This document shows positions 6,106 through 33,580 of a stretch of DNA of 33,906 nucleotides, piece after piece. The stretch comes from Stentor roeselii (taxonomy: Eukaryota; Ciliophora; Heterotrichea; Heterotrichida; Stentoridae), in the NCBI GenBank assembly GCA_006503475.1, contig RSEH01000370.1:1-33906 (forward strand). The letters run 5' to 3'. The notes below the pieces were generated by a model. It made no database searches and was not told the DNA's origin. It saw only the letters and a list, made by a program, of their open reading frames with translations. Both the position numbers and the translations under genes were made by a program. Within the stretch, counting starts at the first letter, position 1. Every line of letters starts with the position of its first letter.

Positions 6106-6192
6106 ATTTATTATAATGGAATATTTTATTAAATTTATACAAAAGAAATCAAAGCTATTAACTAAAAAGATTATTATTATGTTTAAAAGCAT

Positions 6193-9877: not shown

Positions 9878-12800
9878 CTACTTAACTCCATTCTTATTTC
9901 CATCAATACAAATAGAATTCCCCGCATAAATATCAGTAAAATCCGCAGTAGTATTATGACTTTTTTCCGGATGCACTTTCTGAGATCTTTTGACAGCCTT
10001 TTCCGCTTTAAACTTTTTATACTTATTAAAAAGTTCTTTTATCATGCAAAATAATGAATACATGCTAATAAGGGTCTGAAAACTAATACACCCAAGAACA
10101 AGATTAATAAAAACCTTGCTAATAAAATTTCTCGACACTGGTTTTTCATCAGGTAGCATAAACCCCGAAATGGCAATCACTAAAACAACGCACCCTTCTC
10201 CTACAAACTCCGAAATCATAACCGACTTCTCTTTAAACGGTCTGTAAACTACAATATAAACAAGCTGAAGCACTGAAAAAATAAAATTAAGTGAAAACTG
10301 AACATAAGGATACTCAAACAAAAGAGCCTGTGTCAAGATATACTGAAGTCTTCTAATAAAATAAACCAAATAAAACAAATAACTGAAAAATCCTCTGTTC
10401 AACTTAAATTCTGAAAACAAAGACCCAAACCTTTCATTAACAACAGGGTCTTGAACTTTCTTCCTAATTTTAAACAAAAGAAAAGCAGTATAAAATGGAG
10501 TGATCAAAACAACGATCTACTTAAACTTTACAATAATCACCGTCGCCGTGATAAAACTGAAATACCCGACATCCTTCGAATTCAGTGACTAAATAAAAAT
10601 CACAGATTGAATCTGAATAAAAGAAAAAAGTCCAGCTTCAAGATAAACTTCAATCCAGAACCTAATAAAAATCGAGTATCGATAATTTTTCAAGAATTTC
10701 TTACAATATTCACTGATATAAGGCAGTCGACTTCCACCCAGTGCAAAAGGCAACAAAGCGATATGAACAAGTAAAATCACTGCACTCGGTCCAATGTTGA
10801 CCCAAAAGACAGTCGAAGTAAGTCCGACCCTTCTGACTCTATCAATCGGCTTAGAACTGGCTTCGGCATCAAAGAAAAATTGCATAATATTCGGAATTAT
10901 CGAGTAACCTGCCAAGGCCTGCAGGAACTCAAGGATCTCCACTGTGTACTTCAAAGGACATAAAGGAAGATAAATTATTATTTGAATCGTGTTGATTAAC
11001 ACCCAACAAGACGCGGGGTTCGACATCATTGCACTTGTGAAGGACGATGTCATTATTCCTTGCATTGTTGACTTCACTGCTTTTGCGAAAGCTGTTGGAG
11101 GACTGGCAGGGAAAGTTCCGAAGTACTCGTAAGAGAAAAGTTGAGAGTTATTCAAACTGTAGATTGGAGAGGATAAGTAAAGGGAATAAGGAGTGGAAAC
11201 GTTGAAAAAGAACAGGTTTTGTAAGGTTAATATCAGGTGGTCTCTACGGATTTCGATGATTTTAAAGACTTTTGACTCTCCAAAGATGGAGAAATCGATG
11301 GAACTTTCATTTAAAGTAAATTCGAGTTCTTCAGAAAATTGGAAATCGAGGGAGTTGTTAGATAGTAAATTTATCTTTAGGTCAAAGTACTGGTTAAGGC
11401 AAAGATCATTTACAAGTGACTGTCCTTTCAAACAGATGCAAATTCCTTCAGATACTTTCATCCCATTATCACACTCCAAGCAATTTAAAGCCTCATCACA
11501 TTTCAAGCAGAACTTAGGACAATCAACACATTTAAACTCATGCCAAGCACGAGCCTTTCCACATTCAAGTCTACAACTATCAGCTTCTTTAAAACTTACA
11601 CATTTTTGACAGTCAACACTTGAGTTAAGGTTGAAGTAATGCCCTGGTTGACATCTGCATTCGCCATGGACAATGTGGGTGTTATTTCCGAGACACTTTT
11701 CACAGAATTTAAGATTTTTGCATTTCTGGCAACGAAAATGACATTCTTTGCAAGAGGTCTTAGTTGTCAGTCGAGTTTCATTGAAAAAACGTTCATCACA
11801 TTGACATCCTCCGAAAGGGTGAATTGAAGAATTAAGAGAGTTGCATTCTAAGCAAAAAGTTGAATTTTCGCAGAATCGACAGTCGACTTGACAAGATTTG
11901 CAGGTTTTCGTTGAGTTGTCTAAAAAGAACTTTTCTTTGCATTGGCAGGTCCCGTTGATGGCTTCGGCGTTGGTATCAGGACAAGAAGTGCAAAAATTGT
12001 AATCTAAACAGCCCTGGCACTTCAAATCACATCTCAAACAACGAGAATCATTATAATAAAGAGGACTGAAAGGTATTCCATAGAAACCTTCTCGACATTC
12101 ACATTGTTTTTTCACTAAAATCGCTTCATTATCAAAGCAACTCTGACAAGTTTTCATTGAAGAGCACTTAGAACACCCTCCTCCACATTCAAAACAAGTG
12201 ATTTTATCAGTCGGGTTCAAATAATAACCAGTTTTGCAAACACAACGCTTTTTAACAACTTCAGCATTAATGTCTAAACAAGCAGCGCACTCGTTTTTTG
12301 AAATGCATCCAGAACAGGCCTCTCCACATTCAGCTCTGCAGGGACTGGCATCAGTGGCTTCTCCGTAAAACAGGAAAATGCAGGTGCATTTTCCTAAGAC
12401 ACTTGTGGAGAACTGGTCTTTACATTCAATGCAAGTTGTGAGTGATGAACAATGAAGACATTCGTTTGAACAGAGACTGCATTTGTAAGGTTCTGAAAGA
12501 CTTGGATCAAAAAAAGACCCTTTTTGACATTTACAGATCCCGTTGATGGGAAAGGCCAAAGGGTCGAAACATTCTAAACAATTTGAAGAATTTTCACAGA
12601 ATTTACAACCGAATCCACAAGGACTACATTCAAGACTGGTACCAGGGAACTCGTTAAAATAACCTTCTTGACAAATGCAAAGACCATTAAAAATTCTAGT
12701 TTTTCCTGTGTAACAAGAATCACAGTGAGTGTCGTTTCTGCAAGTTATACAACCGATTGGACAAGTGTTGCAAGAACTGGTAGAGGTATTTGAAGGTAAT

Positions 12801-13810
12801 CCCCAGAAACCATCTGCACAGTGACAGGATCCATTTAAAACTTGAGCGTTGGGGTCGATACAAAGAAGACAAAATCCTGGGTCGTTATTACAAGAGCTGC
12901 ATATAGAATAGCAACATTTTTCTCCTCTTTCTACTTCAGGGAAATCACAGTTTAAAGGTACAGTGTTGGGGTTATTGGAACAATACAGATCATTGGATAA
13001 AAAGTTGTAAAAGCAGTAATTAGTGCAGGTGCAATTTAAAGTGGAATTTATTGAACAACCCCAGTTTTCTTCACATTGTGTTTCATTTGAATTTTGTGAC
13101 TGATTTGAATGTTTTGATAAACAAATGAGGCCGTATTTTGGGTCAACAAAGGAATAATTGCATGGCTCGCAAAATCCTGTCAGGCAGAACCCTGGCTCGT
13201 TTGAGTAAAATGTTGAAAGGTCGATGTTTCCGTATATTATTACGAAGTACCAGTAAAAAAGCTTTGCGCCTGGGAAAGAAGAACTTAATGCTCCAAAGTG
13301 AAAAGAATAGATGCTATACATGGAAAAATATATACTCGTATAGCTTATTGATGTAGGATATGTTGTTAGAGTCAAACTTGACCAATTAAGGAGAAGCTTC
13401 ACGAGGACCCATTCATTGTTATTGATAACACCTGAATCTGATATATCACTTTGAGAGTAGTAGCCCCAGCTCATTATGCGAAGTGAGGTCCCGCTTCTAG
13501 AAAGGGTAAATTTCTGATAGTAATTGTATCGATGGTTGAAGATTACTCCAGAATCATCTTTTGGCTTTATCCAAATGATTATTGTTGAAATCGGTCTGTA
13601 CATAAAAGTAGTAAGTCTTATTTGGTTTTGGCCACCGTCCAAGTAAACCCCTCTATCTGTGGACAACGCCTTGCTCGAAGAGTCTACATATGCATGGCGA
13701 TTATTGTACGAAAAGTCGAAGAACTTAGGTCCGAGGCTCTGGCCGAACCTGTATTCAACAATTTTCTGGCAGAGAGACGAGTAAGGAAAGAATAAAATGA
13801 AAAACAACAT
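9878..13810 (-). CDS. LamG-like, furin-type cysteine-rich multi-pass membrane protein with two in-frame TAG codons
   Basis: One continuous frame of 1,310 codons, broken only by TAG at 10589-10591 and TAG at 10517-10519, 24 codons apart. By position: a signal peptide (residues 1-14, Cys at its end); a LamG/concanavalin-like domain (about 16-205); about a dozen furin-like Cys-rich modules (about 210-800) of the form C-x2-C...C-x2-C with NGxCxC turns; a beta-rich linker; and a multi-pass membrane region (from about 930) ending in a basic cytoplasmic tail. Proteins of this layout are common, and mostly uncharacterised, in ciliates; a surface receptor or adhesion role is inferred. The two TAGs fall between membrane segments in a frame that continues perfectly into further membrane helices, with no shift. 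They would be Gln if recoded; otherwise the protein ends at residue 1073 and loses its last helices. The final stop is TAG at 9878-9880. Confidence 0.8.
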
Positions 13811-14175
13811 TATAATCGAATATTTATTATTACTTTGAACAGTTTAGCATTATTTCACTGTGGATTCAATTTAATCAAACTTTTGAGAAACTTTTATTAT
13901 TGTAAGTTAAGTATTATCATAAATTCATTAATTTTAATCGTTTTACCTTCAGGACAATGAAAATTTCCTTCTTAATCCTTAAAATTTAAGATATTTGTTG
14001 ATTTTCTTAAATCTTTTTGTATTTGCATTTAAAATGAAAAATTAGAGTTATATAGTAAGAGCAATTGTAAAAAAATTTAAAATTTATCTAAGTTTATTTA
14101 AAATAACAACCCTCGAAATATACTTTTGGATTTTTTAGATAAAAATTTGAAAATACCTTTTCTTATCATAGCAGA
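13811..14175. other. Divergent intergenic region
   Basis: AT-rich spacer upstream of the membrane-protein gene (-) and of the plus-strand tract starting near 14176. It should contain the membrane-protein promoter, but no motif could be picked out. Confidence 0.5.
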
Positions 14176-15116
14176 GTTCTTGCAAGTGAAGAAAATATCA
14201 TAGAAGAAGATCATGAGGAAAGAAATAAAAATATAGCTACAAAGTTGCTTTAAGTATAGCATTTTTACGATTATGCAAGTAAAGATCCTTTTTATTATGC
14301 CTGAGGTAATTATATATCTTCGATTGCTATATCTGTTAAGAGACTCAATTCAATAGACACTTAAAAATAGCAAATCACCGAAACGATAATAATCAAATAA
14401 TATGAAAATAAACTTAATCGATTTGAATACATTATGTGAATATTTAAAATGATTTTATTCACACATCACTTAAATAGATAAAACTTTTCATTACTTGAAA
14501 AACGATTGTAATTTCATGTCTATATCCTTTAAAACTCAAATTCATCGAAAGTTAATTCCTGCTAGGTGAAGACTATCGAAACCTCTGGCTCCAATTAAGA
14601 GAGTTTATCATTATTTGGAAATATGACTGCCCTCACCAGCAACTACTTTAAGATGTCTAAATGTATAAAAAAGTAAGAAGGATTAAATACTTCGATTAAT
14701 TTGTCATGATTATTTGGTACTGGGCTGATGAAAATTTAACCAAATGGAGCCCATATATATGAGCCTGAGGCCTGCTTATAAAAGAGGTCAATTACCTGAA
14801 GTTTATTCTTAAATATAAATGAAGGAAAATATCGACTTATCAAGATCAAGAAGAACTGGATCGTCAAGAATCGATTTAATCTTTTGAACCAGTGAATTGT
14901 TTACCTGATTGAATTTTTGATATGGTTCAGAGGAATTAAAAGACTCGGAAATAGAGATCGATTATGCAATAAGGAATTGAAGCATTCCAAGAAAACTTAA
15001 AGGTCTCTTAGATTAAACCTGAGCCTATACCTTATAATGATAATCCTGGCTCTTTATTTAATTAAGTTAACCAGTTCATAGTGGATGAATTAGGGTCGAG
15101 TAGAGAAGAAATCTAA
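14176..15116 (+). pseudogene. Stop-interrupted coding-like tract, unidentified product
   Basis: 14176 to about 14400 reads as an acidic then helical segment (starting VLASEENIIEEDHEERNKN). From about 14440 to 15116 another frame gives a Trp/aromatic-rich, possibly membrane-associated part, then a polar tail (IKPEPIPYNDNPGSLFN) ending in TAA at 15114-15116. Stops in this reading are TAA, TAG and TGA, and at least one frame change is needed. Because the DNA is AT-rich, other frames also look superficially coding for part of the length, so the exact path is uncertain. It is either a decayed gene or a recoded one. No family recognised. Confidence 0.4.
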
Positions 15117-15414: not shown

Positions 15415-18400
15415 CTAAATTAAATCTATGACTTGAATCAAATTATGCATCAGTGTTTTGATAAAAGCCTTTTTTTCATCCCTTGAAATAAATAAAATTT
15501 CTTTAATTCTGTTAAATATCGATATCTTTCTGCTGTTAAATGAACTTAAATCAAAAACATTTAAATGGGATTTAGTTGAATATATCAAAAGCTTTCCAGT
15601 AACATAAACTTTTATATCAAACTCATTAAGATTGAGTTGTATTAACTTTGAGAAATGTTCTCTACAAAAAATTACTATTGTTGCTCTATTTTTTATAACT
15701 ATATTATCCATTGTTTCGAATAATTGATTTGAACTATCAAATTCCATATATTCTGAAACTTCATTAAACAAATTTTCCTCAACTTTTGTTTGATTTTCTA
15801 TAAAATATTCATAAAAATTACAAGAAATAGGTGAATATTCCATTCTTTTAAATTCATCATTTATAAACAAATGAAAATGGTTTTTTCCTTCATATACATA
15901 AAAACATTCATTGATTTTTTCTATTTTAAATTTTTTTATAATCCTTTCTGCAGGGTATTCCCTAAAAACAGTAAAATTTTCAAGATCATAAATGACCACC
16001 CGAATCAGTCCTGGAATATTTTCACCAAAAACAATTAAAAACTTTTTATCAGGTAGAAAGAGAAACCTTAAACTTTTAAGAGATTCATTATTCAAACTAC
16101 TGGAGATAAATTGTGGTTGATTTAAAGAAATGCTATCATCAAATGAAATTGATTGAACCGAGACTGAGTCACATTTAGCAATAATAACAGTATCATTAAA
16201 AATAACAAAAATGACTTCGAGAGTATTTGTTTCTATTGTGATTTTTTCTGTGATGTTGGTACTTGAGTAAATATTTATACAATTTTTTGATATTGTGTAG
16301 AAGCATTTATCACAAAATCCGATTTTTTCATAAGACTCTGCATTTTCAACATTTTCAAATTTTATATCTCCTCTGGTAACTACTATAAGATCACAAATAG
16401 TGATATATTTAGTAGCATATTCATTTCTTTTATAGTGTATATAAATGAAGTTTTCCTTTAAAACTACAAAAGGTCGATATTTTGATGAAATATTAATAGG
16501 TGAAGAGAACTTTAGATCATATAAATAAAAAGAATCTTTCACACTAAGTAAAAGACAATCGTTTAAAATATGGTAATCAATAAACGATACATCTGTGAAG
16601 TGATATTCTATTTTTCCAAGTTCTTTTGAATATTCCAGGTCTAGTAAAAGTAATTCTGATTTAAAAGCTAATCCTATAATTTTCCTAGTAATATAAATAA
16701 CTTTTTTGCACTTGCTTATATTTTTATTTTTGAGTATTAATATTGGAGAACTATTATCAAGTCCCAGTTTAAAAATTTTACTTCCTTTTTGATAAATAAT
16801 ATTATTTTCATCTGAATAAATAATAGTTTGGTAATTAAAAGTTGAAAAATTTGAGGATTTCGTTCTTTTGAATGAAATGGTGTAACTCACTATGCTCTTC
16901 GCAGTCAAAATAATAAAGTTTTGGGTTGAAGCTAATTTAAATTCCTTTTCAAACAGCAAATCTTTCGGTTTTTCAAAACTTGATTCAGGGTAATTTGAAG
17001 TCAATCTCCAAAAAAATAAGGTTTCTTTGTTTTCAATGCAATATGCTTGATTATTATTTTCAATTAATTTTATATCATAAAGGTTCGAATTTTCGTAGAA
17101 TACCCGAGACGAAAAATCATTAAAGTTCAAAGTGAAGATTTTTTTCTCTTGAATACAAACAAAAAACATTTTCGCAGCTTTTTCACAGTTTTTTGTTTTT
17201 AACTTAAAATTGGAAGGATTATGAAAATCCAAGAAATTTATAATATTTTGATTTCTTTGGTCTGTTAAAATGTATAAATTCATTTTCGAAATTCCAACAC
17301 TTTTGCTAGTTAACCTTAAAATCATTGATTTTTGTTTAAAGCTTTCAGGATCTCTGAAAATTGAGCAGGTTTCAAGGTCGATAAAGAAACAATTACTCAA
17401 AATCAGGAAATTTCTGTCAGATGTTAAAAAGCTTAGCTCGTAAATACTTTTCGTATCGAATTCAACAGTGGTTTCTATATTTCTTGATGATAGTTCAATA
17501 ATCTTAAGATGACTTGAATAAATTACAAGTATTTTTAACTGATTATTAGTTAAGCAGATTGATCTAATTTTTTCTTCACTTTTATAAATTAGTTCATTTT
17601 CATGTTCTTTTAAACGAATAATCATCCTATCGGCAAAGTAAAATTCTTTCATATCATCAGAAACCATAAATATTATGAAAAAAAAATCAACTTTCATGAT
17701 GAAGTTCTCGCTTTCGAAACTCTTTAAGTTCAATGCTAAAAATTCTAATTCATTATTTTTTTTATTTTTTCCTTTAAAAATCACTGCATGAGATTCGTTA
17801 AGACTCATCAGGACGTTGAACGACAAGATTTTTCCAATAAAAACCTTTTTTTCTATTGCATATAATTTAATGTTCCAGATAATTAGATAGTTTTCTTCAT
17901 AAAACATAAGAAACTCCAATTTGCCAAGTACTTCAAAGTCAAAGATTGTGTCAGTCTTAAGTAAAAATATTGATTCAAAAGTTTCCAGATTGAAGATATA
18001 AACTCTTTTACCAATTTTTATTATCATGTTGTTTTCATAAACCACCTTATACTGCACATCACGTATTTTATTTAAGTTTGTTTTAACTAAACTGAAATAT
18101 TTCTTGAATTTCAAAGATGTTCTTAGAAGATTTTCGACCTTTTTAGAATTTTTGAAAGATTTTCTGATTTTTTTTATATTTGGTGTTTCTAGAGAGACTT
18201 TCTGATCAGCATAGATAAAGTTGTTTATGATTTCAAATATTTTATCAAGACTAAAAAAATTCTGATTTTCTAATTCTGATAACATTTCTTCTAACTTTTC
18301 TGCCTTTCTTATGAGTCCTTTATAAGAAATTTCTTCATTCGTAAAATTTAATGATTCAAGTCTTTGTTTCAGAAGCGCTCGTAATAAGGATAATCTCTTT

Positions 18401-18576
18401 TTTAGTTTAAAGGATTCTTTCAAGGCTAGATTCTTGAAATTTTCTGATATTTGGTAAAAGTTTTTTTTACCTGATTGAGTGCAGAGCTGATCATGAGCAG
18501 TGAGGTTTGATTTATAAATCTGACGATTACATTTCGTGCAACTGAATATCTCTTTTGATAAATTCATTATTATCAT
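15415..18576 (-). CDS. C2HC zinc-finger, WD-like beta-propeller protein
   Basis: An intact frame of 1,053 residues ending in TAG. The N-terminus has a C2HC finger: Cys13-x2-Cys16-x11-His28-x3-Cys32 with Phe before the first Cys, as in the ZC2HC1-type fingers. A Lys/Glu-rich, probably coiled-coil segment follows (about 40-165). The rest (about 170-1050) is a regular series of short beta-strand blades with Leu/Ile-Trp/Tyr-Asp-Leu ends (for example LLIYSTKSHLNVFDLSSF), like highly diverged WD repeats making one or two propellers. A scaffold role is inferred. An alternative start is the second ATG at residue 4. It is the cleanest long gene here: no in-frame TAA, TAG or TGA and no frameshift, although the DNA is full of A and T runs. 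This argues against a high indel error rate. Confidence 0.8.
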   Translation of the reverse strand: MIIMNLSKEIFSCTKCNRQIYKSNLTAHDQLCTQSGKKNFYQISENFKNLALKESFKLKKRLSLLRALLKQRLESLNFTNEEISYKGLIRKAEKLEEMLSELENQNFFSLDKIFEIINNFIYADQKVSLETPNIKKIRKSFKNSKKVENLLRTSLKFKKYFSLVKTNLNKIRDVQYKVVYENNMIIKIGKRVYIFNLETFESIFLLKTDTIFDFEVLGKLEFLMFYEENYLIIWNIKLYAIEKKVFIGKILSFNVLMSLNESHAVIFKGKNKKNNELEFLALNLKSFESENFIMKVDFFFIIFMVSDDMKEFYFADRMIIRLKEHENELIYKSEEKIRSICLTNNQLKILVIYSSHLKIIELSSRNIETTVEFDTKSIYELSFLTSDRNFLILSNCFFIDLETCSIFRDPESFKQKSMILRLTSKSVGISKMNLYILTDQRNQNIINFLDFHNPSNFKLKTKNCEKAAKMFFVCIQEKKIFTLNFNDFSSRVFYENSNLYDIKLIENNNQAYCIENKETLFFWRLTSNYPESSFEKPKDLLFEKEFKLASTQNFIILTAKSIVSYTISFKRTKSSNFSTFNYQTIIYSDENNIIYQKGSKIFKLGLDNSSPILILKNKNISKCKKVIYITRKIIGLAFKSELLLLDLEYSKELGKIEYHFTDVSFIDYHILNDCLLLSVKDSFYLYDLKFSSPINISSKYRPFVVLKENFIYIHYKRNEYATKYITICDLIVVTRGDIKFENVENAESYEKIGFCDKCFYTISKNCINIYSSTNITEKITIETNTLEVIFVIFNDTVIIAKCDSVSVQSISFDDSISLNQPQFISSSLNNESLKSLRFLFLPDKKFLIVFGENIPGLIRVVIYDLENFTVFREYPAERIIKKFKIEKINECFYVYEGKNHFHLFINDEFKRMEYSPISCNFYEYFIENQTKVEENLFNEVSEYMEFDSSNQLFETMDNIVIKNRATIVIFCREHFSKLIQLNLNEFDIKVYVTGKLLIYSTKSHLNVFDLSSFNSRKISIFNRIKEILFISRDEKKAFIKTLMHNLIQVIDLI

Positions 18577-20929: not shown

Positions 20930-21146
20930 TTCAACCTTATCTAAATAATTCCTTAATTTATTAAAACATTCTATATATTGAGTCTAAAACTATGAAACAA
21001 TTCAATAATTGTAAGTCGAAATCCAGATAAGCTCTTTTCAACCTTATCTAAATAATTCCTTAATTTATTTAAACATTCTATATATTGAATCTAAAACTAT
21101 AAAACTATTCAATGATTTTATTAAAGTCGAAATCCGGATAAGCTTC
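20930..21146. repeat. Tandem duplication (107-base period) at the 3' end of the monooxygenase gene
   Basis: Two adjacent direct copies, 20930-21036 and 21037-21146, share long identical stretches (starting ttcaaccttatctaaataat) with scattered substitutions and small indels. The second copy contains the last codons and stop (TAG at 21105-21107) of the monooxygenase gene. The first is a duplicated downstream copy with the equivalent of the final Asp-Phe-Asp codons but a diverged end. Confidence 0.9.
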
Positions 21147-22580
21147 CTTATACTCCCTCACAAATTCTCTAATCCTCTCTTCCTGTTCAAGATTCTCCTT
21201 GAACATAAAAACAGTGCAAAAAGGTCCATTCCTGAATCCAAGAGATTCTAAAAACTCATAATCAATCTGAACATTAAGCACTCTAAGAAACTCAAAAACA
21301 ATACACCCGACATTATAATTATAAATAGAATCTGGAAATTCATTTCTTAACTTTTCTTCCATCCTAACCCCTTCCCACAACTCTTCATCACTGATACTCA
21401 GTTGTCCAGTTATCCACTTCACTGCAAGTAACGCCTGAATCTCGTATTTTCCAGGAAAAGGTCCAAAAAAGCATCCAGTAAACGCAAGTCGAGGAAGCGC
21501 AGGGTGGATGCTGGTTCTAAACAAGGTCAAAGCGATGCTTTCTTTTTTTGGGTCATAATTAAGTAACTCCTTAATTTCCTGACTTAAATAGTCAAAGTTG
21601 CAATAGTACCCCGTGCCAAGGATAATGACATCTGCGGGGATTTCGGAGCCATCAGTTAAAATTAATCCATTTTCAGTAATTTCTTTTGCAGAGGCTTTAA
21701 TACATTTTATTTTCTCAGTTTTAAGACAATCGAGGTAGTCATCTAGATGAATGCTCAGTCTTTGGAAGTTGTTTCGTAGCTCTTCATCGGTTATTCGTAA
21801 TTCTTCAAGATAGTCTCCTGGATTTCCACAAATGCTCTCAATTTTTCTCATACTTCTCTCATTACTTTCTTTTGTTGTAATGAAGGAGTCTTGTTGATGT
21901 CGTTTTAAAATGTTGTACATGTAGAATTCAAATGGAAGGCCCATGGCCTTTCTTTTCAAGAAAAACATCGATTTTCTATATATTTGAGTCACGGATTCTG
22001 AATTCATGCAGGCTTCACTTGCTATGTCACAAGAACTGTAAGAATTTCCTATGATTACAACTTTTTTCCCCTCGAATATTGAAGGTTCTCGATAATAAGC
22101 TGAATGCATTACAACTCCTCTAAACCTTTCTTTTCCTGGAATATTGTCTTTCAATCTTGAATAATACCCAGTGCCCAAGATAACATATTTAAAAGTTCGA
22201 GATTCTGAGCATCCTTCAGAAGTAAAACTTACAGAATAATTCTCACCAACTTTCGATACTTCTGTGACTGAATTATTAAATTTAATGAACTTAAAAAGTC
22301 CATGCTTATTCGCAAAAGAAGTATAATATTCCAACATTTCACTTCTAGTCGGAAACTCTTTGGCTTGTTTAGGCCAGGGGTGGTCTGAAATCCAACTAAA
22401 AACTTTAGAAGTATTTGCAGTCAGTGAATTTCAAGTCCCGATTTCTCCCTCTGCTCCTTTCCAGATTCCACCTATCGAGGTGGTTTTTTCTACGATGAAA
22501 GGAATCAACTGGTGCTCAAGACAGAATTTCGCTGATATTATGCCTGAGACTCCTGCACCTACTATGCAAACTTCTTCCAT
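21105..22580 (-). CDS. Flavin-containing monooxygenase with one in-frame TGA
   Basis: The frame from ATG at 22580-22578 to TAG at 21107-21105 has 491 codons, a usual length for flavin monooxygenases, with TGA at 22431-22433 (codon 50). It shows the FAD Rossmann motif Gly-Ala-Gly-Val-Ser-Gly (8-13), Gly-Gly-Ile-Trp around residue 39, the family signature Phe-Arg-Gly-x3-His-x3-Tyr, and the NADPH motif Gly-Asn-Ser-Tyr-Ser-Ser. These enzymes use NADPH and O2 to oxygenate soft nucleophiles (N or S) or act on ketones; the substrate is unknown. Under the standard code, translation could start only at residue 82 and would lose the FAD motif. The TGA sits in GT-[TGA]-NSL, where family members have an aromatic residue, so Trp fits. 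It may be a recoded TGA or a single nonsense change from TGG. Confidence 0.85.
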
Positions 22581-23289
22581 TTATATCTTATCTAAATTTT
22601 AAAAAAATTTAACAGGATTTAAAGCATTGAATTGATAATCAGGATTAGGTCAATTGAGAATTATCTTATTTTTGTGTTTAGGTGGGCATTTAATTTTTCA
22701 ATTAATGATGATAAGGTTTTATTAGTATTCTTGGCGAGCTGGTACTTTTAGAGATTAATTTCTTATAGAGAAATAGGCTTATGATGAACTCCTTTTTTGG
22801 CATATAATTGATTTAAATAGAATTAGTAATTATTAGTGTTTGGTTAAAATAATAACAATTTTTCAAGTATTATATAGGATTCTAAAGATCATAGATCATA
22901 TTGTATCATTTTCGGTTTTTTTTAGATGAGGCATTTAACAATATGCTTTGGAAGGTAAGGAGGATATAGAATTCCCAAAATGTAATTATCTGTGAGGAGA
23001 CCTTCCCGAACAACTGAAAAAAAAAATCTAAAGGAAAATACTCATCACACTAAAAGCTAAAACAATTTACTATTAGTCTTGTCAACATCATCATCAAAAC
23101 CATCATCAAACCTCCAAATTAAAATAATCACATTTTTATAATAAATACTCAACAAATTACTAAATTATCGAAAAGCAACTAATCCATCAAGAGTTTTTCC
23201 ACATATATTTAAGCATCAGCAAAATTTTTAGCCTGATTCTAAATAAATCTCAAAAAACAACACTTATTCAAAGGCCTTCCAGTTACCCA
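22581..23289. other. Intergenic region
   Basis: Upstream of the monooxygenase gene and downstream of the interrupted minus-strand tract. It includes a repeated cat-cat-caa-type stretch near 23090-23110. No gene was called. Confidence 0.45.
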
Positions 23290-25910
23290 TATCATTATTA
23301 AAAACAGCAGGTCGATTATCTTTATCAATCAAATTCTTCAAAAGAAAAAAATTCTAGTCTTCTTAAAACATTTTCAGAAAAATACAAATTTCCATCGAAG
23401 TCTATTCCAGATCTTGAGGCAAGGTCTTTGCTAGTATTTGCCCTTTCAAGCATAATTGCTTTCCATATAATTATCTAATCATTTCCCTATGTTTCTTTAA
23501 CTTCGTTGTCCTTGGTTCTTCCTTCCCAGATGCCTTCTTGCCGCTGTCATGTTTATCATCTAAGATGGCTTCAATCAAGTAATCAACGAGTAACTACAAA
23601 CATAAGAAGCGTTAATTTAAGTTCAATGAGCAGAGTTTCAATCTTTTCAATGAAAGCCTCGACTGCCGTCTCGGTATCTGTCTTTAGATCGGGAAAATTA
23701 TCTAAACTTAACAAGGAATTTTTTTTCTTAAATTATTGTAATGCAAAGGTGGCCTTTTCGAATTACCTGTCATGTAGAAGGTTGATCATAAGGAGGATAA
23801 ACATCGACTTGTTTATGGTTTCTTTGAATTTCAAACGAAGTGGATTAAAAAGTCAGCGATATCTTATTGAACCATGAGATTGATTTTCTTACTTTTTCAC
23901 TTTTATTCGGATTAGCAAGAGTCCCTTATATAGCTTTTCCAGATGCTCCAATCGCTTAATACCTTTGTCCTGTAAGAAACTGAGCAAGGTTTACCCTTTA
24001 AGAAAACCAACTCAAGTCAATATTTCCAGTATCATTGTTTGAAGTTAATGTTTACCTTCACCAGGTACATCTGCTGAAGCGCTTAAAAAGTGACCAGTTT
24101 TAGAATGATGTAAGTTTTAATAACATCATTCAAGTTCTTGTTTCCGATTTCAACCGATCATGAAGAGCGACCATGTGATTCAAGAAACAAATAAAAACTC
24201 AAGATGGCCTTTATTCAGCTTGTCTCAAATAAAGGTTACCTTGAGTGACCTTCAGAAATATTTGATGGCTTCAATGATTTCGAGTTTTCCTTAATCAGAA
24301 CTGCACCCTTTCTGAAGTTTTTTTTCATGAATTTAGCTCGAACCAAGCTTTTTTGTTAGGACTGACAAAAATTTCAAAGATTTGTGAGAGCTGGTATAGA
24401 CTTCTCGAGAGAGACTTCATCATATCGGAACTTGATGAATGGTCCCGATCTTTGAACAGAGCTTTTAAGTCATGTTATCGGCGAATCCTGTTTAGTACCC
24501 TAAGGAAGCCAGAATCTTTTAACCACTCGCGTTTTTCATGAGGTCTTGACATGATACCTGTTCATGTTGGCTTCCAGAGCGAGGTTCAAAGGACTGAGAA
24601 TCGTGCTCAAAACAGCCCAAACATGCCGTAACCCTTCTTCATAAACCCTGTAAGCATTTTCAAACGAGGGGATTTTTAGTCATTTCTTTCGGTGGACATT
24701 ATTCCTCTGCAATGATGATGATCTCGACCAGTGAGTTGGTGATCTACACAAAAAATATTAACACCTGATGGCAACATCAAGCAGCTTTGCAAAAACTTGT
24801 CTTGTTATCCACGTTCGTGTTTTCCGGCTATGTTCAAAAGTAGCTTCAGGCTCAGCTGCTCATATAAATCAACTTTGCGCTGATTTCATCACATTAAAAT
24901 CTTTCAATGCTCAAGGAACTCAGAAATATTAATGAAAAGTTTAGTTGCTACCTCAAATATATCTGCTGGGCTGATTTTTCGTTTAATTGGAATTTTTATC
25001 ACTTTTATGAGTTCCAAAATATTTATGGGTTATTTCACCTTGTTCGTAATCCCTCAGCTCGCAAAGTTCACTTGTTCGTCCTTTTAAAATTAATGTTGTC
25101 GAGTTTTAGCTTTTTTCGTAGTTCTGGTAAAATTTTCTGTTGAGGAGCAGATTTACTTTCAACCTGCGTCGATTTTGATCCAGTTGCGGCTGATTATTCG
25201 AAAAGCTTACTAAAAGTATTTTTTTTGTAGGTCCACTGATAAGTCACTTTAAAGTTGACATTTCTTCATCTGTGGTTTTTTCTCCTTCGAATGAAGTTTC
25301 TTTGTATTTCAAGTTGATGAATCTTTTCTATAATTTTCGAAGTAAATCTCTGGGTTTTGGACTTGAATTTCAAGAAGGTCATTTTTTGTCAGGAAGTTTT
25401 GGCTCGCAAGCGCTTTTTGGGAGTAGATGATTTTTTCATGTGCTCTTTATCAGATCTTATTCAACGCGCTTGGATTCTTAAGTGCTTTTAAAGCTTGAAC
25501 TGGTTTTTCAGGATGGAAAAAGCTGGATTATTTTAGGTTTTTTTCTTGTAGTATTTTTTGATTTTAATTTTTAGAATTTTGAAGAAATATTGAGGGAATA
25601 TACTGATTTTAGAGATATACCAGATTTTTATTGATTTGTAATCAAGGTGGTCTCAAAGATCTGGGATACTTTGCGGTAGGTGTGAACTACTTTATAATCA
25701 ATCATGGATTACCAAGGGTTGATGATATAACAAGTTTGAATATACATTTAATCCATTTTAGCCTCACTTACAGACACACAGGTTGCCTTCAAGAGTACCT
25801 TTCAAAAACTCTTCCTGAGTTCAGTTTTTCCCTTATCTTTAACATACTCGAGTTTTACCCTGTCAACTTTTCCCTTCCCTGTTGTTTCCAAGCGAGTTAA
25901 AACTTAAACA
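23290..25910 (-). pseudogene. Long interrupted coding-like tract, unidentified product
   Basis: This region is less AT-rich than the spacers and reads on the minus strand as protein with many TAA, TAG and TGA codons. Clear coding-like pieces, in gene order: TTGKGKVDRVKLEYVKDKGK (near 25860), SAATGSKSTQVESKSAPQQK (near 25170), VYEEGLRHVWAVLSTILSPL (near 24620), AFIEKIETLLIEL (near 23650), LERANTSKDLASRSGIDFDG (near 23430) and NRPAVFNNDMGNWKAFE (near 23290). The first several share or nearly share a frame. The last is displaced by one base, and shortening a run of seven T near 23350 would join it to the preceding piece. No family was recognised. Stops together with a homopolymer indel favour decay, but recoded stops are not excluded. 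Confidence 0.5.
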
Positions 25911-26017
25911 AGCTGGAATAGTCTTTCTTAAAATATTCGTCAATAAAAATTTATCATCTTCGAGAGGTCGAGAAGGCTTCTTAAGTTTATTTAATACATT
26001 TCAATTATATTCATAGA

Positions 26018-27439
26018 TTAAGAGTATTCCAAGTAACTCATCACGCTTTCTCTTCTTAGGCCGAAAGTTTCCATCAATTTCTTTTGGTCGACCTCCAGTT
26101 CGTAGATTGTTGTCGAAGCGAAGCCTGTCGTAGCCATTCCTCCGAAAATTAAGACCTTACTTCCTAGAACTGCGCATGAAGCTCCTACTCTTCCTGAGAT
26201 GTTCTCGCTGTGTAGACGCACTGGATCCCATCTCCAGGAGTTTATGCGAAGGAATACTAAATCGTTCAATATTCTTCCTGGAATCGAATCGTTTTGGCCA
26301 CCGAAGATCACTAAAAATGTTGTGCAAAAACAGGCACAGTGCCCATATCTCGGCAAGGGCTGGTTCCCTCCAGGTACTAATTTCGTCCAAACAAGTTCAA
26401 ACGCTCCAGGTCTCGTTTTCGATTTTTGGCCTTTTAAAACATAAAGATCATTCAAAGGACTTCCATCCTGGCTTTTGCCCCCGAATAAATACATTCCGGA
26501 TGTCTGTTTAGTGAACATATGATCATGGACTTTAGGTACTCTGAAGACATCAAAATTGTGACCCCCTGACAAAGAAGGATGAAAAATGGGAGTCAAGCTA
26601 GACCCAGCTCTAAGTGGAGGAACATCTCCTCGAACATGAAAATTATTCCAATGCATATTGTCCAAGTCAAGAACTCCAGCACTTCCAAGCATATCGCCTT
26701 TACTATTGAGTCCTGAGTAGATAACAAGTGTCCTTCCAACAACCAAGCCTAAATGATTTCTTCTTGCTTCCGGAACATGTCCAGCAGGTTTATGACTTTT
26801 CCATTTTCCACTCACAGTATCAAACAAATAAACAAGTGAGTTGCAGTTCCTAATCCTTAAAATAGGATCGAAATTCACAAACCCTCCATAAACAACAATA
26901 AACTGTTTAAAAACCGCTGAAATATGTCCACTCTTCACCACAGGTAATTCAGAAACTCCATTATTAGCAGGCAAAACACGATACCAAACAAGAGAAACGT
27001 ATTCAAGTCGTTTCAAGTCACAAATCAATTCAGCGCCTTCCCCAGCGAACAAATAAACATTCTTCGAAATTACGTTCATAGTGCCTCCAGTCCTGGCGAC
27101 AGGCAAGTCTCCATTAGTTTCAAGTTTTTTCCAATAAGCATGAATCACCTCGGACCTGATGAAAACACTGACAAGGTCGATGTTGTTTTTTTTGCTGTCC
27201 TCGTATTTATTGATCAGTTGGTCTAAAAAGTTTACTTTTGGGGAAAGGCTGCGGAATTCAATTTTTGAGAGTCTTTGGCAATTCATTTCTCTTAAAGAGA
27301 AAAACGGGGAGGAGGTTGTGTAGTGAGTTACGACTGGAGTTCGAGGACCGTATCTTTGCTTTACTCTTGGAAGACTTGTCTCTGAAGTGATTTTTTTGGG
27401 TTTAAGTTCTCGAATCACTGTAAATCTCGGAGATTCCAT
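26018..27439 (-). CDS. Kelch-repeat protein
   Basis: An intact frame of 473 residues ending in TAA. A basic N-terminal tail (1-105) is followed by five or six kelch repeats (about 110-455). These are recognised by the hydrophobic-Gly-Gly pattern (VVYGGF, MYLFGGKS, LVIFGGQN, VLIFGGMA), upstream Arg-x-Gly-His or Arg-x-Gly-Ala pairs, and downstream Trp (for example VWTKL, WRWDPV). Kelch repeats fold as beta-propellers that bind partners such as actin or ubiquitin-ligase subunits. There is no BTB, F-box or catalytic domain, so a scaffold role is inferred. It lies 5 nt downstream of the EF-hand gene in the same direction. Confidence 0.88.
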   Translation of the reverse strand: MESPRFTVIRELKPKKITSETSLPRVKQRYGPRTPVVTHYTTSSPFFSLREMNCQRLSKIEFRSLSPKVNFLDQLINKYEDSKKNNIDLVSVFIRSEVIHAYWKKLETNGDLPVARTGGTMNVISKNVYLFAGEGAELICDLKRLEYVSLVWYRVLPANNGVSELPVVKSGHISAVFKQFIVVYGGFVNFDPILRIRNCNSLVYLFDTVSGKWKSHKPAGHVPEARRNHLGLVVGRTLVIYSGLNSKGDMLGSAGVLDLDNMHWNNFHVRGDVPPLRAGSSLTPIFHPSLSGGHNFDVFRVPKVHDHMFTKQTSGMYLFGGKSQDGSPLNDLYVLKGQKSKTRPGAFELVWTKLVPGGNQPLPRYGHCACFCTTFLVIFGGQNDSIPGRILNDLVFLRINSWRWDPVRLHSENISGRVGASCAVLGSKVLIFGGMATTGFASTTIYELEVDQKKLMETFGLRRESVMSYLEYS

Positions 27440-27444
27440 TTAAT

Positions 27445-27984
27445 TTAAACTACTTTTCGGGTCATTATGAAGTAAAAGTCGTCGAAAGTTACGAGCTTGT
27501 CTGAATCTGAGTCGCCTTTTTCGATCAATCTTTTTAATGTTGCGTCGCTCAGTTGTAAGCCGATGTCATCGACTAGTTCTCTTAGATCTTTAAAGCTAAT
27601 GAAACCTGTTTTTTCTTTGTCGAAGATGTTAAATACCTTTTGGATCTCTACTTTTGAGTTCTCGTTACTTGAGTCTCCTGTGATCAGTGAAAGGAACTCG
27701 GGAAACTCGATTTTGCCGGAATTGTCTGAGTCGATTTCTGAGATCAACTCGAAAATAGCTGAGTTTTTTGCTTCTAATCCGAAATCTGTGATCATTTTTT
27801 TAAATTCTTGAAGTTCTATTGAACCTGAACTGTCTAGGTCTATCAAATCGAAAGCTTCTTTTAACTCTAGGATTTCTTCTAGAGTGCAGCCTGGCTTTAA
27901 GTAGGTTGAAGGGTCGAAGGATTTTGGGCCTCGAAGAATTTTAGAGACTGGAGCAGGGGGAAGGACTTGGTTGACTGCTGACAT
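27445..27984 (-). CDS. Centrin-like EF-hand calcium-binding protein
   Basis: An intact frame of 179 residues ending in TAA. After a Pro/Lys-rich N-terminal tail of about 40 residues there are four EF-hands. Loops 1 (DLDSSGSIELQE) and 2 (DSDNSGKIEFPE) have canonical ligands including the final Glu. Loop 3 (DKEKTGFISFKD) and loop 4 (DSDSDKLVTFDD) end in Asp, and loop 4 has Lys in place of the central Gly, so they may bind weakly or prefer other ions. Length, tail and hand spacing match centrins and related ciliate calcium-binding proteins of contractile or basal-body structures. That location is inferred, since calmodulin-like relatives cannot be excluded. It is divergent from the HExxH gene across 274 bases. 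Confidence 0.9.
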   Translation of the reverse strand: MSAVNQVLPPAPVSKILRGPKSFDPSTYLKPGCTLEEILELKEAFDLIDLDSSGSIELQEFKKMITDFGLEAKNSAIFELISEIDSDNSGKIEFPEFLSLITGDSSNENSKVEIQKVFNIFDKEKTGFISFKDLRELVDDIGLQLSDATLKRLIEKGDSDSDKLVTFDDFYFIMTRKVV

Positions 27985-28258: not shown

Positions 28259-30877
28259 ATGTACGAAACAATTGATACTTTTGTCAGAAGAAGCCTCAAT
28301 CTTCCCTGCTTCTCTGAAATACTGGCTAGAATCACATCCACTAGCAATTTGAAGATCCAGGAAATGATATCAGAACTGAATGAACTTAGTGATGATGAAA
28401 AATTCGTCTTGGCCCTTTACAACTATAAGAAATTTTATGAAAGTATACCGAATGGATACAGCCTCAATTCTTACTTAAAGATTATTGATATAATAATTAT
28501 GCATTTTAACAAAAGTTCAAATCAAAAATCACCTGAAAAAATAATTCAACCAGAAAATATATTAGAGAGTAAACCTGATCAGAAATTTCTTAAACAAGTA
28601 TATGAAGTAGTAGTAGCAGAACCAGAAAAGACTACAACAGAAATTGCATTTCAATTAGAGATTCGAAAAATAATTCAATTTTTAAAAAACCATCTACTAA
28701 TTTCTTTATCTTTGACTGAAAACACTAAAAGTTGCATTTTAAAAACTTTTAAATCCTGGATCAAACAAAGATCAGAAAAATTGAATGATGAGAAAAAAGT
28801 TTTTTACGAAGTATTAAGATTTTGGAAAAAAGTAAGAGATATGAATGGTTTTTTAAGGAAAATCAAAGCATCTAATTCTGAATCTGATAAAATAATGTTG
28901 AAGTCAAATATAAAAAAATTGATATACAATAAATTAGTAAAATATGATTTTGCATTGAATTTTGTGATAGAGACAATATACGAAACTCAATTATCTCGAA
29001 ATATCGAAAGAGAAATTCTTGACATTGTTCAAAATATTGTTTCTGAAAATCATCTGCCTATAACATCTTTAATATCAAATGCTCTCGAGTTAGCTTTACC
29101 AAATTATTTTGACTGCCGAGTTAAAGATCTTATACAAGGAAGAAAATTAATCAAATTAATCTTAAAAATCTTTGATCAGGTTATCATTGACAGCAATTCT
29201 AATTATTTCAACACAATAATTAACGAAGATTCACGAATAGATAAACTTGGAGTCAATTTTTTAAATTTATTTATGAATAGTTATGATGATTTCTATAAGT
29301 TGAGTATTGAAAGCCTCAGCATCAATACAAAAATTGGAAAAATTTTATCAGTAAAATCGATTTTTATAAGCATTAACCGATATTCAAAACAAATGCAAAT
29401 GGCTATAATCGAAATAATGATTCAGGCACTGCAGTCCAATAAAATAAATGCCATTAAGTATATGGAAATTATAGTTTTTGGTAAAAAATTAAAGCTAAAA
29501 CCACTCTCTCAATATTTAAAAAATATTTTCCTATTGAAAGCTTCAAGTAATCCTTTTGAAAAAGTTTTGATTCAGTTTCTGGCTGATAAATCACTAAATT
29601 TGGTAGAGTGTCTGAGGAAAATGATTGACCAAACATATGTGATGAAACTTCCTAAAAATATATCAGGGATAAATTTATCTAACGGTAATGTCATCTTAAA
29701 AAAATTTAAAAAAGGAAAATATATGATTGGTGCTACATTCTACATGTTTCTTCACGAGGCTGCACATTTTCTTCAAAGAATAAAAAGTGTTAATTTTGCA
29801 GACAGTGATAGACCATTTAGTGCTGAACTTGGAATTCAGTTAGACATAAATGAAGTATCACCAAATAATCATAAAAATTGGAGCAACTCTACTATTATGG
29901 AAGTTATCACAAAAATGATTAACAAAAGAAAAATTAAGCATTCAATTCCCCGAAGTACTGAAGAAAGAAAATCTATTGACCAAACAGTCATTAGCCTAAC
30001 AACTCAAACTGAAAACATTGAAAAAAACAACCTTTTATATCTTAGGCATAACAATGAAATAAATGAACAAGAAAGAAAATCAATTGGCAAAACAGTCCTT
30101 AGTCTACAGAAACAAGATGAAAAGATTGACACAAAAATCTTTCAGAATCTTGAACAAATACAAGTAAAAATTCATGAAGAAAGAAAATCTCTAGTCATAA
30201 AAACTCCGGGCTCAGAAAAGGAACATGAAAATTTCGGAGAAGCCAACATTCAAATTCTGGAACAAATCGATTTAATTGATCAAGAAAAAATATCTACAGA
30301 CCCGCAAAAACAAGAAGAAAATCTTAGAGAAACTAACTTTCAAGATCTTAATAAACAAATATTGAAATTGATTCAATTCACTAAATCAGAAATAGAAATA
30401 GAATCTTCAAAAGATATAAGTGAAATTATTGAAAGATTATATGTTGCAGAAAATAATGAGGAAGAGTCAAGTAGAATGACTCTAAAGGAAATTCTTATTA
30501 TTGAAAGAGAAACCGGTAAATTAACTGAAGCTAAAGAACAATTTTTGAGTATGATCGAAGAAATAGTTAAAATTTTACCTAATGATTATTATGCAAAACT
30601 CAATGATAATCAAGAAAATCTTAATGAAAAAGAAGTGCGCATTGAAGGTGGTAAAATACTCGAAGTTGCGATCTTTGGGGTTGAGTATGATTTAATCTTC
30701 ATAAGAGGTACTGAGTTTTTGATGTCCGATTTAACAGGCTACAGCTTGCCAGAATTCAGAGAGCTGTTCAATAAAGAAAATGTTAGATCAAGCATATCAG
30801 AACCAGGACAAAATTTGAAACGAAGGTATGATAGAAGTAGTCTTGGAATATGTGGGTTTCATTACTTAACTAAATAG
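28259..30877 (+). CDS. HExxH-motif protein with helical N-terminus and tandem 36-residue repeats
   Basis: An intact frame of 872 residues ending in TAG. Residues 1-470 are mostly helical and could form an alpha-solenoid (long Leu/Ile/Lys helices, no Cys pattern). A hydrophobic helix then carries His499-Glu-Ala-Ala-His503, the zinc-binding and catalytic motif of metallopeptidases. Residues 569-676 hold three units of exactly 36 residues, each starting Glu-Arg-Lys-Ser, with a weaker fourth after them. Near the C-terminus, EGGKILEVAIFG (796-807) offers Glu802 as a possible third zinc ligand. The long insertion between the two motifs is unlike classical gluzincins, so catalytic activity is unproven. 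The N-terminal part alone would be unassignable. Confidence 0.75.
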   Translation: MYETIDTFVRRSLNLPCFSEILARITSTSNLKIQEMISELNELSDDEKFVLALYNYKKFYESIPNGYSLNSYLKIIDIIIMHFNKSSNQKSPEKIIQPENILESKPDQKFLKQVYEVVVAEPEKTTTEIAFQLEIRKIIQFLKNHLLISLSLTENTKSCILKTFKSWIKQRSEKLNDEKKVFYEVLRFWKKVRDMNGFLRKIKASNSESDKIMLKSNIKKLIYNKLVKYDFALNFVIETIYETQLSRNIEREILDIVQNIVSENHLPITSLISNALELALPNYFDCRVKDLIQGRKLIKLILKIFDQVIIDSNSNYFNTIINEDSRIDKLGVNFLNLFMNSYDDFYKLSIESLSINTKIGKILSVKSIFISINRYSKQMQMAIIEIMIQALQSNKINAIKYMEIIVFGKKLKLKPLSQYLKNIFLLKASSNPFEKVLIQFLADKSLNLVECLRKMIDQTYVMKLPKNISGINLSNGNVILKKFKKGKYMIGATFYMFLHEAAHFLQRIKSVNFADSDRPFSAELGIQLDINEVSPNNHKNWSNSTIMEVITKMINKRKIKHSIPRSTEERKSIDQTVISLTTQTENIEKNNLLYLRHNNEINEQERKSIGKTVLSLQKQDEKIDTKIFQNLEQIQVKIHEERKSLVIKTPGSEKEHENFGEANIQILEQIDLIDQEKISTDPQKQEENLRETNFQDLNKQILKLIQFTKSEIEIESSKDISEIIERLYVAENNEEESSRMTLKEILIIERETGKLTEAKEQFLSMIEEIVKILPNDYYAKLNDNQENLNEKEVRIEGGKILEVAIFGVEYDLIFIRGTEFLMSDLTGYSLPEFRELFNKENVRSSISEPGQNLKRRYDRSSLGICGFHYLTK
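29963..30286 (+). repeat. Three in-frame 108-base repeats inside the HExxH gene
   Basis: Units begin at 29963, 30071 and 30179 (108 bases each) and encode Glu-Arg-Lys-Ser starts followed by Gln/Glu/Asn-rich helical sequence. Units 1 and 2 are most alike (ERKSIDQTVISL and ERKSIGKTVLSL). Unit 3 is diverged, and a vestigial fourth unit may follow at 30287. Confidence 0.75.
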
Positions 30878-30950
30878 AATTAAGTAGTATTAAAATAAAA
30901 TCTTGATGCTTCAAAGTCTCGAATTACTAGAGTTAAATGAAAAATAAAAA

Positions 30951-31926
30951 TTATGTTCTAAAATCCTCAACCTTTTTTTCATAGTCACTTCTAAATCCAG
31001 ATTGAATCATATTCACATAAACTTGAATCATGATTAGATCAGATCTTGATAAATTTTCATAATCTTTATAAAGAATTTATATAATTTGATGAGCCCACTT
31101 TTAAAGTTTAATAAAATTTAGATCAATCCAAGCTAGTCTCTTGTAGCGAGAGTTACTCATAATTTCAATCTCCTAATTTGTTTTCTGCTCATAGTTCTCA
31201 CTAAAGCCCGATTTGGAGAGATTCAAACTTTTTTTGCAGTCTCTGAATTCTAAAATTTCTAAGTATTATTTCTTAAGAATTGGTTTTTTTAAGTCACATA
31301 AAATCACTGATTTATCATATGATCCACTTATAGCTAAAGCACAATTATTAGATAACGCTAAAATTTGAACTATATTAGAATGTTCAGCATAGCAAGCTAT
31401 TAGGCTCAATTCAACCATGCTCCATAATCTAACAGTGCAATCTTCTGATCCAGTAAGGAGAGTTTATCCATCACTTAATATTACCATACAAAAGAAATCT
31501 CAATTGTGATTCTGAATAAATTGTTTTTCTTTTTCAAATCCAAGTTCAGAGTATATTAATTTATGAGAATATAATTTCTGCATTTCATACATTAATTCTC
31601 TCAAATCTGGAAGCTTGATGATCATTTCATCGTTTAGAATTTTTCTTATTTCATCAATTTCTGACTCAAAAAACTCGTTTTTCTGTAGAAATTTGTTATT
31701 TATTAATAGTTTTGATAATATTTTTCATTATTGAATCGTGATAATTTTCTATGGTTATCAAAAGATGCTCAATCTGAAGTTTTAGGATTTTCTTTAGATT
31801 TTTTAATGATGAAATTCTTGAAGTGAGCTCATTAGAAACTGAACTTTTCTCTATTGTTAGATAATTTTTTTTTTTAATATTTAGAAATAAGCTCACGAAG
31901 TAGTCGCAGACACCGGCCTGTTATTC
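30951..31926 (-). pseudogene. Broken paralogue of the B-box-like WD-repeat gene
   Basis: The N-terminal part reads in one frame from about 31926 to 31696: a degraded Cys segment (Val-Cys near 31910), then a coiled coil (SLKNLKKILKLQIEHLLITI) clearly similar to that of the gene at 33615 (SLKSLKKQVYLQTEETIKTI). At AAATAAC near 31697 the frame shifts by one base. The new frame runs to TAA at 30953-30951 through TGA 31500, TAA 31464 and about four more TAA/TAG. It contains two excellent WD repeats (TLLTGSEDCTVRLW and AISGSYDKSVILCDL). The protein would be about 325 residues. The repeats are very well preserved although six internal codons are stops, so it is either a young pseudogene or a recoded gene. 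Confidence 0.7.
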
Positions 31927-31938
31927 ATATTGAAAAAG

Positions 31939-33580
31939 ATGATATTTCCAAAAGGTCCAAAAAGTTTAAGCGCGAGGTTTCAAAGTCAAGTATCTCAAAC
32001 AACCTTCAGTAGTCTCGAATCAGTCCAATTAACTAAGACCTTCGACGAAGCACGAGCCAAGGCCATCTGCGGAGCACCCTTTCTCGCCCCAGCAAAAGGA
32101 AGTCAGCGAAGAGATCAAAAGTCGAATTCACAGCTGGCTGGTCGACTTTAGGTGATTCCTCCGAACTTTTTCTTGCACGTGTTCCTTTAACGCATGCGAG
32201 CGTCTCGCTCAGTGACCAACCGACTGGAAGGCCGCACTGAGGTGGTTCATGGGTTCATAAAAACCTTAAGAACACTTCTTTTTGCATCGCAAACATCACC
32301 ACGTCACTTGAATTTTGAAGGAAATCCCGAAAGTCAGATCAACATTTACATGGGCTAGGCTGAAATTCATGAAAGTAGCGAAGAGCGTATTAGACACTTC
32401 TACATGAATCGGCACCTGAACTTTTTGGGTAGAACATGTTAGAAGTGTGAAAACAGTTTTAAACCTGTTTCTGTCACTAGTTCCATGAAAAAGTCTATTT
32501 TCAGTGGGTTAACGCCTTGGGACTTGAACAGTTCGTAGTTTTTCACTCGGATCTGTAGAGAGGGATAATATTGTGAATGGTGTTGTTTAGATGAAGAGAT
32601 TTTACAGCACAAGACCAGGTATTATATGAAGTTCATGAATGAGCCTCAAAATTTGGATAACTTGAATAGCGCCTTGAAACTCATCAAAAATCGAGTCATC
32701 CCAGTGAGAAGTTTCATAGTCGGTTCAATGATCCGAAAGATTTGCTCTGAGCTGTGCTTTAGGAACTCATGAATAAAAATCGGGCTAATACTGATTTTTA
32801 TGATTCTTTTGGAATGAAAAATCAGAAAGATTCCTTGCTCAGCTGGATTGAGTCTTTAAAACTACTACCTCCTAGAGTTACTACATTTTAGAACTTTTTC
32901 TCAATTTAGGAATTGAGTACTGCTTGAAAGTTTGGTAAGTCTTGTAGAGCTGTAGAAAAAGTATTAAATCATTCATAATACTTAGACTGAATATGGTACT
33001 TTGTTGAATATTAGAAGGGTATTTAATATGTGAAGAATAAAGTGAGGATGAGTCAGTAATATACTGAAAGGCAAAAGAAATACATCATGGGACTTAATTG
33101 GTAGAGAATTAATCTTCGATTAACTTGAAGACCTTCACCGATTCGCAAATGGTGTCCAAGTGAAAAGCATTCATCCCCAACCCTTACTTTGGGACATCAC
33201 TTCTATCAAGCACAATAAAGCCAGTTCCTCAAGATATTCCTCCAAACCGTACTTTAGAGAAAGTCCATGCCATAGAAAACTTTCTGAAAGGTCTAAACAC
33301 CAGCCTCTCCAATCTTTAAGGCGAGACCCTTTCCGAGTTAAAGTCGGGTGAAAAGCTATGCGAAATAATCTAAGTATCGAAACACACGAGCTGGAAGGTG
33401 TCCATAGATCAGTAAAGACCTTAGCAGGAGCCCTTGCGGACATCCACAAACCTTTAGACTTTCTATACAAAAGCCTTCCTTTCCACGCAAGTTCATGTAC
33501 CTAGACGACCAGATCTTAAACGGCAAGGGAAAAGTGATCCGGTCTCTTCTTGAAGCAATAATCATCTTTTTTGAGTATTG
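31939..33580 (+). pseudogene. Interrupted coding-like tract with a Cys-rich segment
   Basis: It starts divergently from the broken B-box paralogue and ends just before the gene at 33615. Strong pieces: an N-terminal basic Ser-rich part (to 32151); about 32285-32760 in one frame with only TAG/TAA interruptions, carrying a Cys pattern (GRTC-[TAG at 32440]-KC, then CREG-[TAA]-YCEWCC) that suggests zinc binding; NTDFYDSFGMKNQKDSLLSW near 32790 in a frame shifted by one; RTLEKVHAIENFLKGLNTSL near 33260; and HRSVKTLAGALADIHKPLDF near 33410 in another frame. The shift before 32790 can be explained by loss of one A in a run at about 32690. Family unknown. Confidence 0.5.

Follow-up and report, generated by a model that had tools for sequence, protein, structure and literature searches.

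Fifteen-nucleotide introns and decaying gene copies as the probable source of in-frame stop codons on a Stentor roeselii contig

Stop codons that seem to lie inside genes on a contig of the ciliate Stentor roeselii have, very probably, two joint explanations: 15-nucleotide (nt) introns account for the TAGs of healthy genes, and the decay of gene copies accounts for tracts in which stops are crowded. The contig (RSEH01000370.1, here C311) was analysed complete, and its 33,906 bp are called the window below; the assembly holds 44,391,514 bases in 522 contigs. An earlier note on this DNA had placed the in-frame stops at glutamine (Gln) or tryptophan (Trp) positions and had read them as recoded stops or as graded gene decay. 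We propose that an in-frame TAG in a healthy gene would be the 3' splice site of a frame-neutral 15-nt intron, that stop-rich tracts are duplicated copies which have lost their function and are decaying through frame-shifting deletions and substitutions biased towards AT, and that a lone TGA in a monooxygenase gene would be a recent nonsense mutation within a family of many copies. The evidence does not support recoding: introns and decay cover the cases examined, and the lone TGA is the point that remains. An apparent case of recoding restricted to certain genes is thereby removed.

The TAGs of a Cys-rich membrane-protein gene illustrate the first half of this explanation. As the earlier note stated, its frame (9878-13810, minus strand) contains two TAGs (10517-10519 and 10589-10591) and is otherwise open to its end. 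Each of them closes a 15-nt stretch of the form GT...TAG:

9878..13810, minus strand: Cys-rich membrane-protein gene with three predicted exons, 1300 amino acids (aa) once two 15-nt introns are removed (open reading frame, ORF, and paralogues)
10589..10603, minus strand: putative 15-nt intron 1, GTGATTTTTATTTAG, whose final codon is the first in-frame TAG (inserts in paralogues)
10517..10531, minus strand: putative 15-nt intron 2, GTAAAGTTTAAGTAG, whose final codon is the second in-frame TAG (inserts in paralogues)

A Pfam search with the first exon gave zero matches, and a DNA paralogue (C162:57270-61199, 77%) spans nearly the whole length of the gene. We took the homologous stretch from four copies (C162, C446, C207 and C98) among the places matched. 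At site 1, three of the four paralogues carry 15-nt GT..YAG inserts (GTAATTCTTATTTAG in C162, GTAATAAAAAAATAG in C446 and GTGAGTTTTATGCAG in C207); at site 2 the same holds for all three that reach it (GTAAAGTTTATTCAG in C162, GTAAACTCTAATCAG in C98 and GTAGGGTTTATTTAG in C207), the C446 piece stopping short. Length 15, GT, YAG and an A at position 10 are kept between paralogues at both sites, C98 at site 1 excepted, while the interiors differ, and where a copy ends in CAG the in-frame stop is missing. A Gln codon would not behave in this way, with length, GT, AG and A10 constant, the interior free and no stop in the CAG-ended copies. The inserts also leave the reading frame unchanged, 15 being divisible by three. 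Position 10 is an A in both window inserts, as published for Stentor introns, and may be the branch point. In fact, the introns of Stentor coeruleus measure 15-16 nt; a length of 15 nt together with a branch A at position 10 is given for 8005 of them (90.90%) in the available part of PMC9505925. Both membrane-protein TAGs thus look like the 3' ends of 15-nt introns, products of neither recoding nor decay, splicing itself being what we infer from the sequence. As a separate observation, window positions 7801-10809 have a second copy at C98:6852-10122, in which the membrane-protein end is broken.

The same signature appears elsewhere in the genome. We surveyed 45 loci (210,750 bases) for in-frame TAGs preceded by at least 80 open codons and followed by at least 30. 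GT stands exactly 15 nt back in 8 of the 24 that pass this filter, compared with 0-4 at any other single length between 9 and 40; at the same loci it does so in none of 19 filtered TAA and none of 22 filtered TGA. The identical 15 letters of intron 2 recur in locus L023, where they close with another in-frame TAG. Conserved domains tell a similar story, counted here and below among the best-scored candidates only: 12 of 135 kinase domains hold any stop, 10 of them a TAG and 3 a TAA (one has both), none a TGA, and in the two of these ten that were checked the TAG ends a 15-nt GTA..TAG. Introns of 15 nt, always frame-neutral and often ending in TAG, can thus imitate read-through stops in heterotrich-like genomes.

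Gene decay very probably explains the tracts at about 22.9-26.0 kb and 30.9-33.6 kb, where stops are abundant in every minus-strand frame; the piece at 31.9-33.6 kb is in fact coded on the plus strand:

22910..25960, minus strand: decayed copy of a Myb-domain ORF, the ORF next to it and the beginning of a JmjC ORF; on C374:9244-13283 all three are open
31263..31679, minus strand: decayed WD-repeat remnant, B-box/WD-related, matching the B-box/WD protein of locus L088
31890..33559, plus strand: decayed copy of a multicopy calponin-homology-domain gene, with an open 680-aa copy on C322

The first of these, together with the end of the adjoining Kelch gene, matches C374:8947-12955 at the DNA level, where three ORFs are open: that with the Myb domain (412 codons), one of 593 codons and the JmjC ORF (244 codons). 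Decay is reciprocal: the window keeps the Kelch gene open and the others dead, and C374 does the reverse, its Kelch 3' remnant (8947-9291) retaining 317 of 1422 bases with 3 stops and 3 frame-shifting gaps. Paramecium has pseudogenes left by genome duplications, and the case here is similar, one copy being open, the other decayed and different neighbours kept in each; here, however, only a segment of about 3.4 kb is seen, and there is no evidence for duplication of the whole genome.

We aligned four pairs, each with the dead copy in the window and the open copy on C374 or C322, over 1384 fully aligned codons. Forty-nine stops lie opposite sense codons for 14 residue types: Gln 9, Glu 8, Lys 7, Trp 5, Leu 4, Ser 4, Gly 3, Arg 2, Tyr 2 and five other residues once each. 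A rule by which TAA and TAG mean Gln and TGA means Trp fits 12 of the 49 (the nine Gln, and three TGAs among the five Trp), and 35 stand at other residues. The gaps are mostly deletions (145 of 157, with 12 insertions), and 142 of the 157 are not multiples of three, counts that vary with alignment settings. Assuming that the open copy stands near the ancestor, GC-to-AT changes number 418 on 1880 sites (255 of them transitions) and AT-to-GC changes 177 on 2590 sites. The C-to-T and G-to-A route to decay suggested earlier is thus part of a wider GC-to-AT bias, and a single change of that kind accounts for just 12 of the 49 stops. In three of the four pairs the third codon positions have diverged further than the other two, so some of the divergence must have accumulated while the genes were constrained. 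The WD remnant, which had been put forward as a clean Gln/Trp case, proves otherwise: against the open L088 paralogue its TGA stands at Gly, the next TAA at Arg and another stop at Asn.

Homologous to open genes, broken by frame-shifting indels and carrying stops opposite many kinds of residue, the stop-rich tracts are, on this evidence, pseudogenes and putatively non-functional. Most of the decayed copies have an intact twin elsewhere in the genome; for 31,262-31,866, a genome DNA search found no open twin close in DNA. Together, decayed and open copies form a small data set on pseudogene decay in a ciliate, deletion-biased and AT-biased. Our literature search on pseudogenes in Stentor or in ciliate somatic genomes listed no title or abstract that deals with the present case; truncated retrotransposon pseudogenes are mentioned for Blepharisma in the available part of PMC9942806.

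What of the earlier claims, then? For the stop-rich tracts decay holds, for the monooxygenase it probably does, and for the membrane protein it fails. The general placement of stops at Gln and Trp positions, and with it the recoding, gives way before the 35 stops at other residues, the 14 residue types and the TAGs that end 15-mers, seen also in paralogues. Codon-by-codon alignment, which the note had advised to make with orthologues and which we made with paralogues, bears it out for the monooxygenase TGA alone, and that gene does contain, as described, one TGA in 491 codons:

21105..22580, minus strand: flavin-containing monooxygenase (FMO) gene, 491 codons with one in-frame TGA (Pfam FMO-like, 5.8e-51; paralogues)
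22431..22433, minus strand: the TGA, codon 50, which is TGG (Trp) in 14 of 14 paralogues fetched

Among the 17 best-scored other FMO matches in the genome, four have one TAG, one has one TAA and none has a TGA; 16 of them reach codon 50, and the 14 fetched include the C250 copy. Divergence from this copy by codon position is 0.279, 0.246 and 0.543, the pattern of a gene recently under constraint. We consider a recent TGG-to-TGA nonsense mutation in this multicopy family the likeliest reading, and a reasonably probable one. An error of base calling or assembly, or else an allele, in a gene that is functional comes after it and is a possibility of some weight: there is one change and no further defect, and the codon-position divergence is as for a constrained gene. 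If the TGA is real, on the other hand, the ORF that begins downstream of it (410 aa) lacks the N-terminal GxGxxG stretch, the flavin adenine dinucleotide-binding motif.

Several observations weigh against our explanation by introns, decay and a nonsense mutation, in addition to the dependence of gap counts on alignment settings. The monooxygenase frame is otherwise open through its 491 codons. At site 1 of the membrane protein, the C98 copy, whose frame is broken, lacks the AG. Without the filter, GT..TAG pairs at 15 nt number 237, no outlier beside the 187-244 counted at the other lengths between 10 and 30, so the open-flank filter matters; in the window alone, the GT..TAG length spectrum has no 15-nt peak. 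Among ORFs of at least 250 aa, 50 are terminated and a further 20 continue past the end of the sequence; TGA terminates just 2 of the 50, and 8 of the 97 ORFs that have a Met and at least 150 aa. One ORF of L028 has a TGA downstream of a Met, one of L079 has TGAs in its tail region, and certain ORFs of 200-361 codons are rich in TGA (up to 14); these last we regarded, without testing them one by one, as antisense or chance frames. Finally, eRF1 (L071:1840-3216), whose inspection the earlier note had advised, retains NIKS, GTS and YLCDNKF, and reads KAANIKS where the best-matching solved eRF1 (3e1y, the human protein) reads TASNIKS. Such an eRF1 alongside very few in-frame TGAs could be relevant to the reassignment of UGA in heterotrichs.

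The rarity of TGA terminators initially led us to favour a Blepharisma code, in which TGA encodes Trp, TAA and TAG terminate and introns measure 15-16 nt. Both long ORFs that end in TGA are backed by a TAA, at once in L029 and 13 codons on in L079, and the monooxygenase TGA does stand at a conserved Trp. Moreover, Blepharisma stoltei has this code, introns mostly of 15-16 bp and a 41-Mb genome, as the available part of PMC9942806 describes. We abandoned this code after the kinase and WD40 searches and an ORF census, and now hold it very unlikely. TGA is found in 0 of 135 kinase domains, 0 of 150 WD40 matches and 0 of the 17 other FMO matches, so that a TGA at a conserved Trp is seen in one gene only. 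In 148 non-overlapping ORFs bounded by TAA or TAG, we counted 170 TGA and 509 TGG, 105 of the 170 TGA lying in ORFs shorter than 200 codons; ORFs of at least 500 codons hold 7 TGA versus 179 TGG, and on visual inspection all 7 precede the first likely Met. The sole tRNA-Trp found has anticodon CCA. We also used codon usage to look for coding on either side of stops; training windows and other frames gave overlapping scores, and the test had too little power for a decision.

Since TGA is scarce as a terminator too, its role as a stop is not strongly shown. TGA could be a nearly vacated codon, hardly met as Trp, seldom a terminator and accompanied by the KAANIKS form of eRF1, and the monooxygenase TGA an early, rare Trp codon; we regard this as a long shot. 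If true, it would capture the reassignment of UGA in a heterotrich at a moment shortly ahead of its spread.

To search for suppressor tRNAs, as advised in the earlier note, we scored 63 of 3131 first-look candidates and ran the 58 loci that hold the scored ones through ARAGORN, overlaps being counted more than once. The 76 calls cover 28 anticodon types, including Gln UUG and CUG and one Trp CCA; UUA, CUA and UCA are absent from these calls, and so are tRNAs for Leu, Tyr, His and Pro, which means that the set is incomplete. Used as a DNA query, the tRNA-Trp matched its own position and four others, each called Arg by ARAGORN, and a pattern search for UCA loops gave three matches, none called a tRNA.

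To a Condylostoma-like code, in which TAA and TAG mean Gln, TGA means Trp and closeness to the mRNA end sets termination, we give almost no credence: two TAGs and one TGA within otherwise open frames, the TGA opposite a Trp kept in all paralogues fetched, speak for it, and against it stand the intron-like 15-mers that the membrane-protein TAGs end, the 14 residue kinds behind the decayed-tract stops, kinase-domain stops that are TAG or TAA, with 15-mers at the two TAGs checked, and, more weakly, the absence of suppressor anticodons from the incomplete tRNA set and of tRNAs among the three UCA-loop matches.

On our explanation the window is an ordinary contig from a ciliate of heterotrich kind, with the standard code as far as tested. 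The 15-nt introns and the scarcity of in-frame TGA would fit a standard-code heterotrich such as Stentor. The S. coeruleus genome measures about 83 Mb and the one here 44.4 Mb, and the introns here are read from sequence. The two are otherwise alike in introns of 15 nt with GT..AG, an A at position 10 and AT-rich composition, and, as far as tested here, in the standard code that the available part of PMC9505925 gives for S. coeruleus. B. stoltei shares the 15-16-bp introns, a genome of about 40 Mb and the mention of truncated pseudogenes, and differs in reading UGA as Trp (PMC9942806, available part), where here TGA is hardly met inside reading frames. Condylostoma magnum, with its context-dependent code (PMC4967479, in the part available), is similar in having in-frame stops at first sight; here, by contrast, TAGs would come from introns, dead-copy stops fall at 14 residue types and the incomplete tRNA set holds no suppressor.

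The window carries WD40, Cys-rich membrane-protein, FMO-like, Kelch and EF-hand genes and ORFs of 1053 and 872 aa. ORFs of at least 120 aa cover 46% of it, compared with 30-78% in nine 10-kb samples from other contigs. Several long ORFs are free of any internal stop, as the earlier note had remarked and the ORF list confirms. Two open genes lie beside the first decayed tract:

26018..27439, minus strand: Kelch-repeat gene, open (Pfam and comparison with C374)
27445..27984, minus strand: EF-hand gene, open (ORF list and Pfam)

The two long ORFs, at 15415-18576 (1053 aa, GC 25.6%) and 28259-30877 (872 aa, GC 28.3%), gave zero matches in a Pfam search.

Many matches lie at contig ends, and we considered a telomeric position for the window. 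This was set aside: telomere-like repeat runs were not seen by eye in 17 contig-end stretches (16 contigs), and a pattern scan gave five scattered single matches, in L011, L040, L060, L073 and L075. The WD40 gene at 4117-6192 belongs to a dispersed family found at more than 20 other places with 70-88% DNA identity, some at contig ends. At the contig start, positions 1-135 are an inverted copy (96%) of its 3' end (4074-4209), which may reflect a contig break within a repeated gene or a fold-back artefact. At the other end, positions 33616-33906 (plus strand) hold the open start of a B-box-like protein that resembles the L088 B-box/WD gene and runs off the contig. Both window ends thus lie within or beside repeated WD genes.

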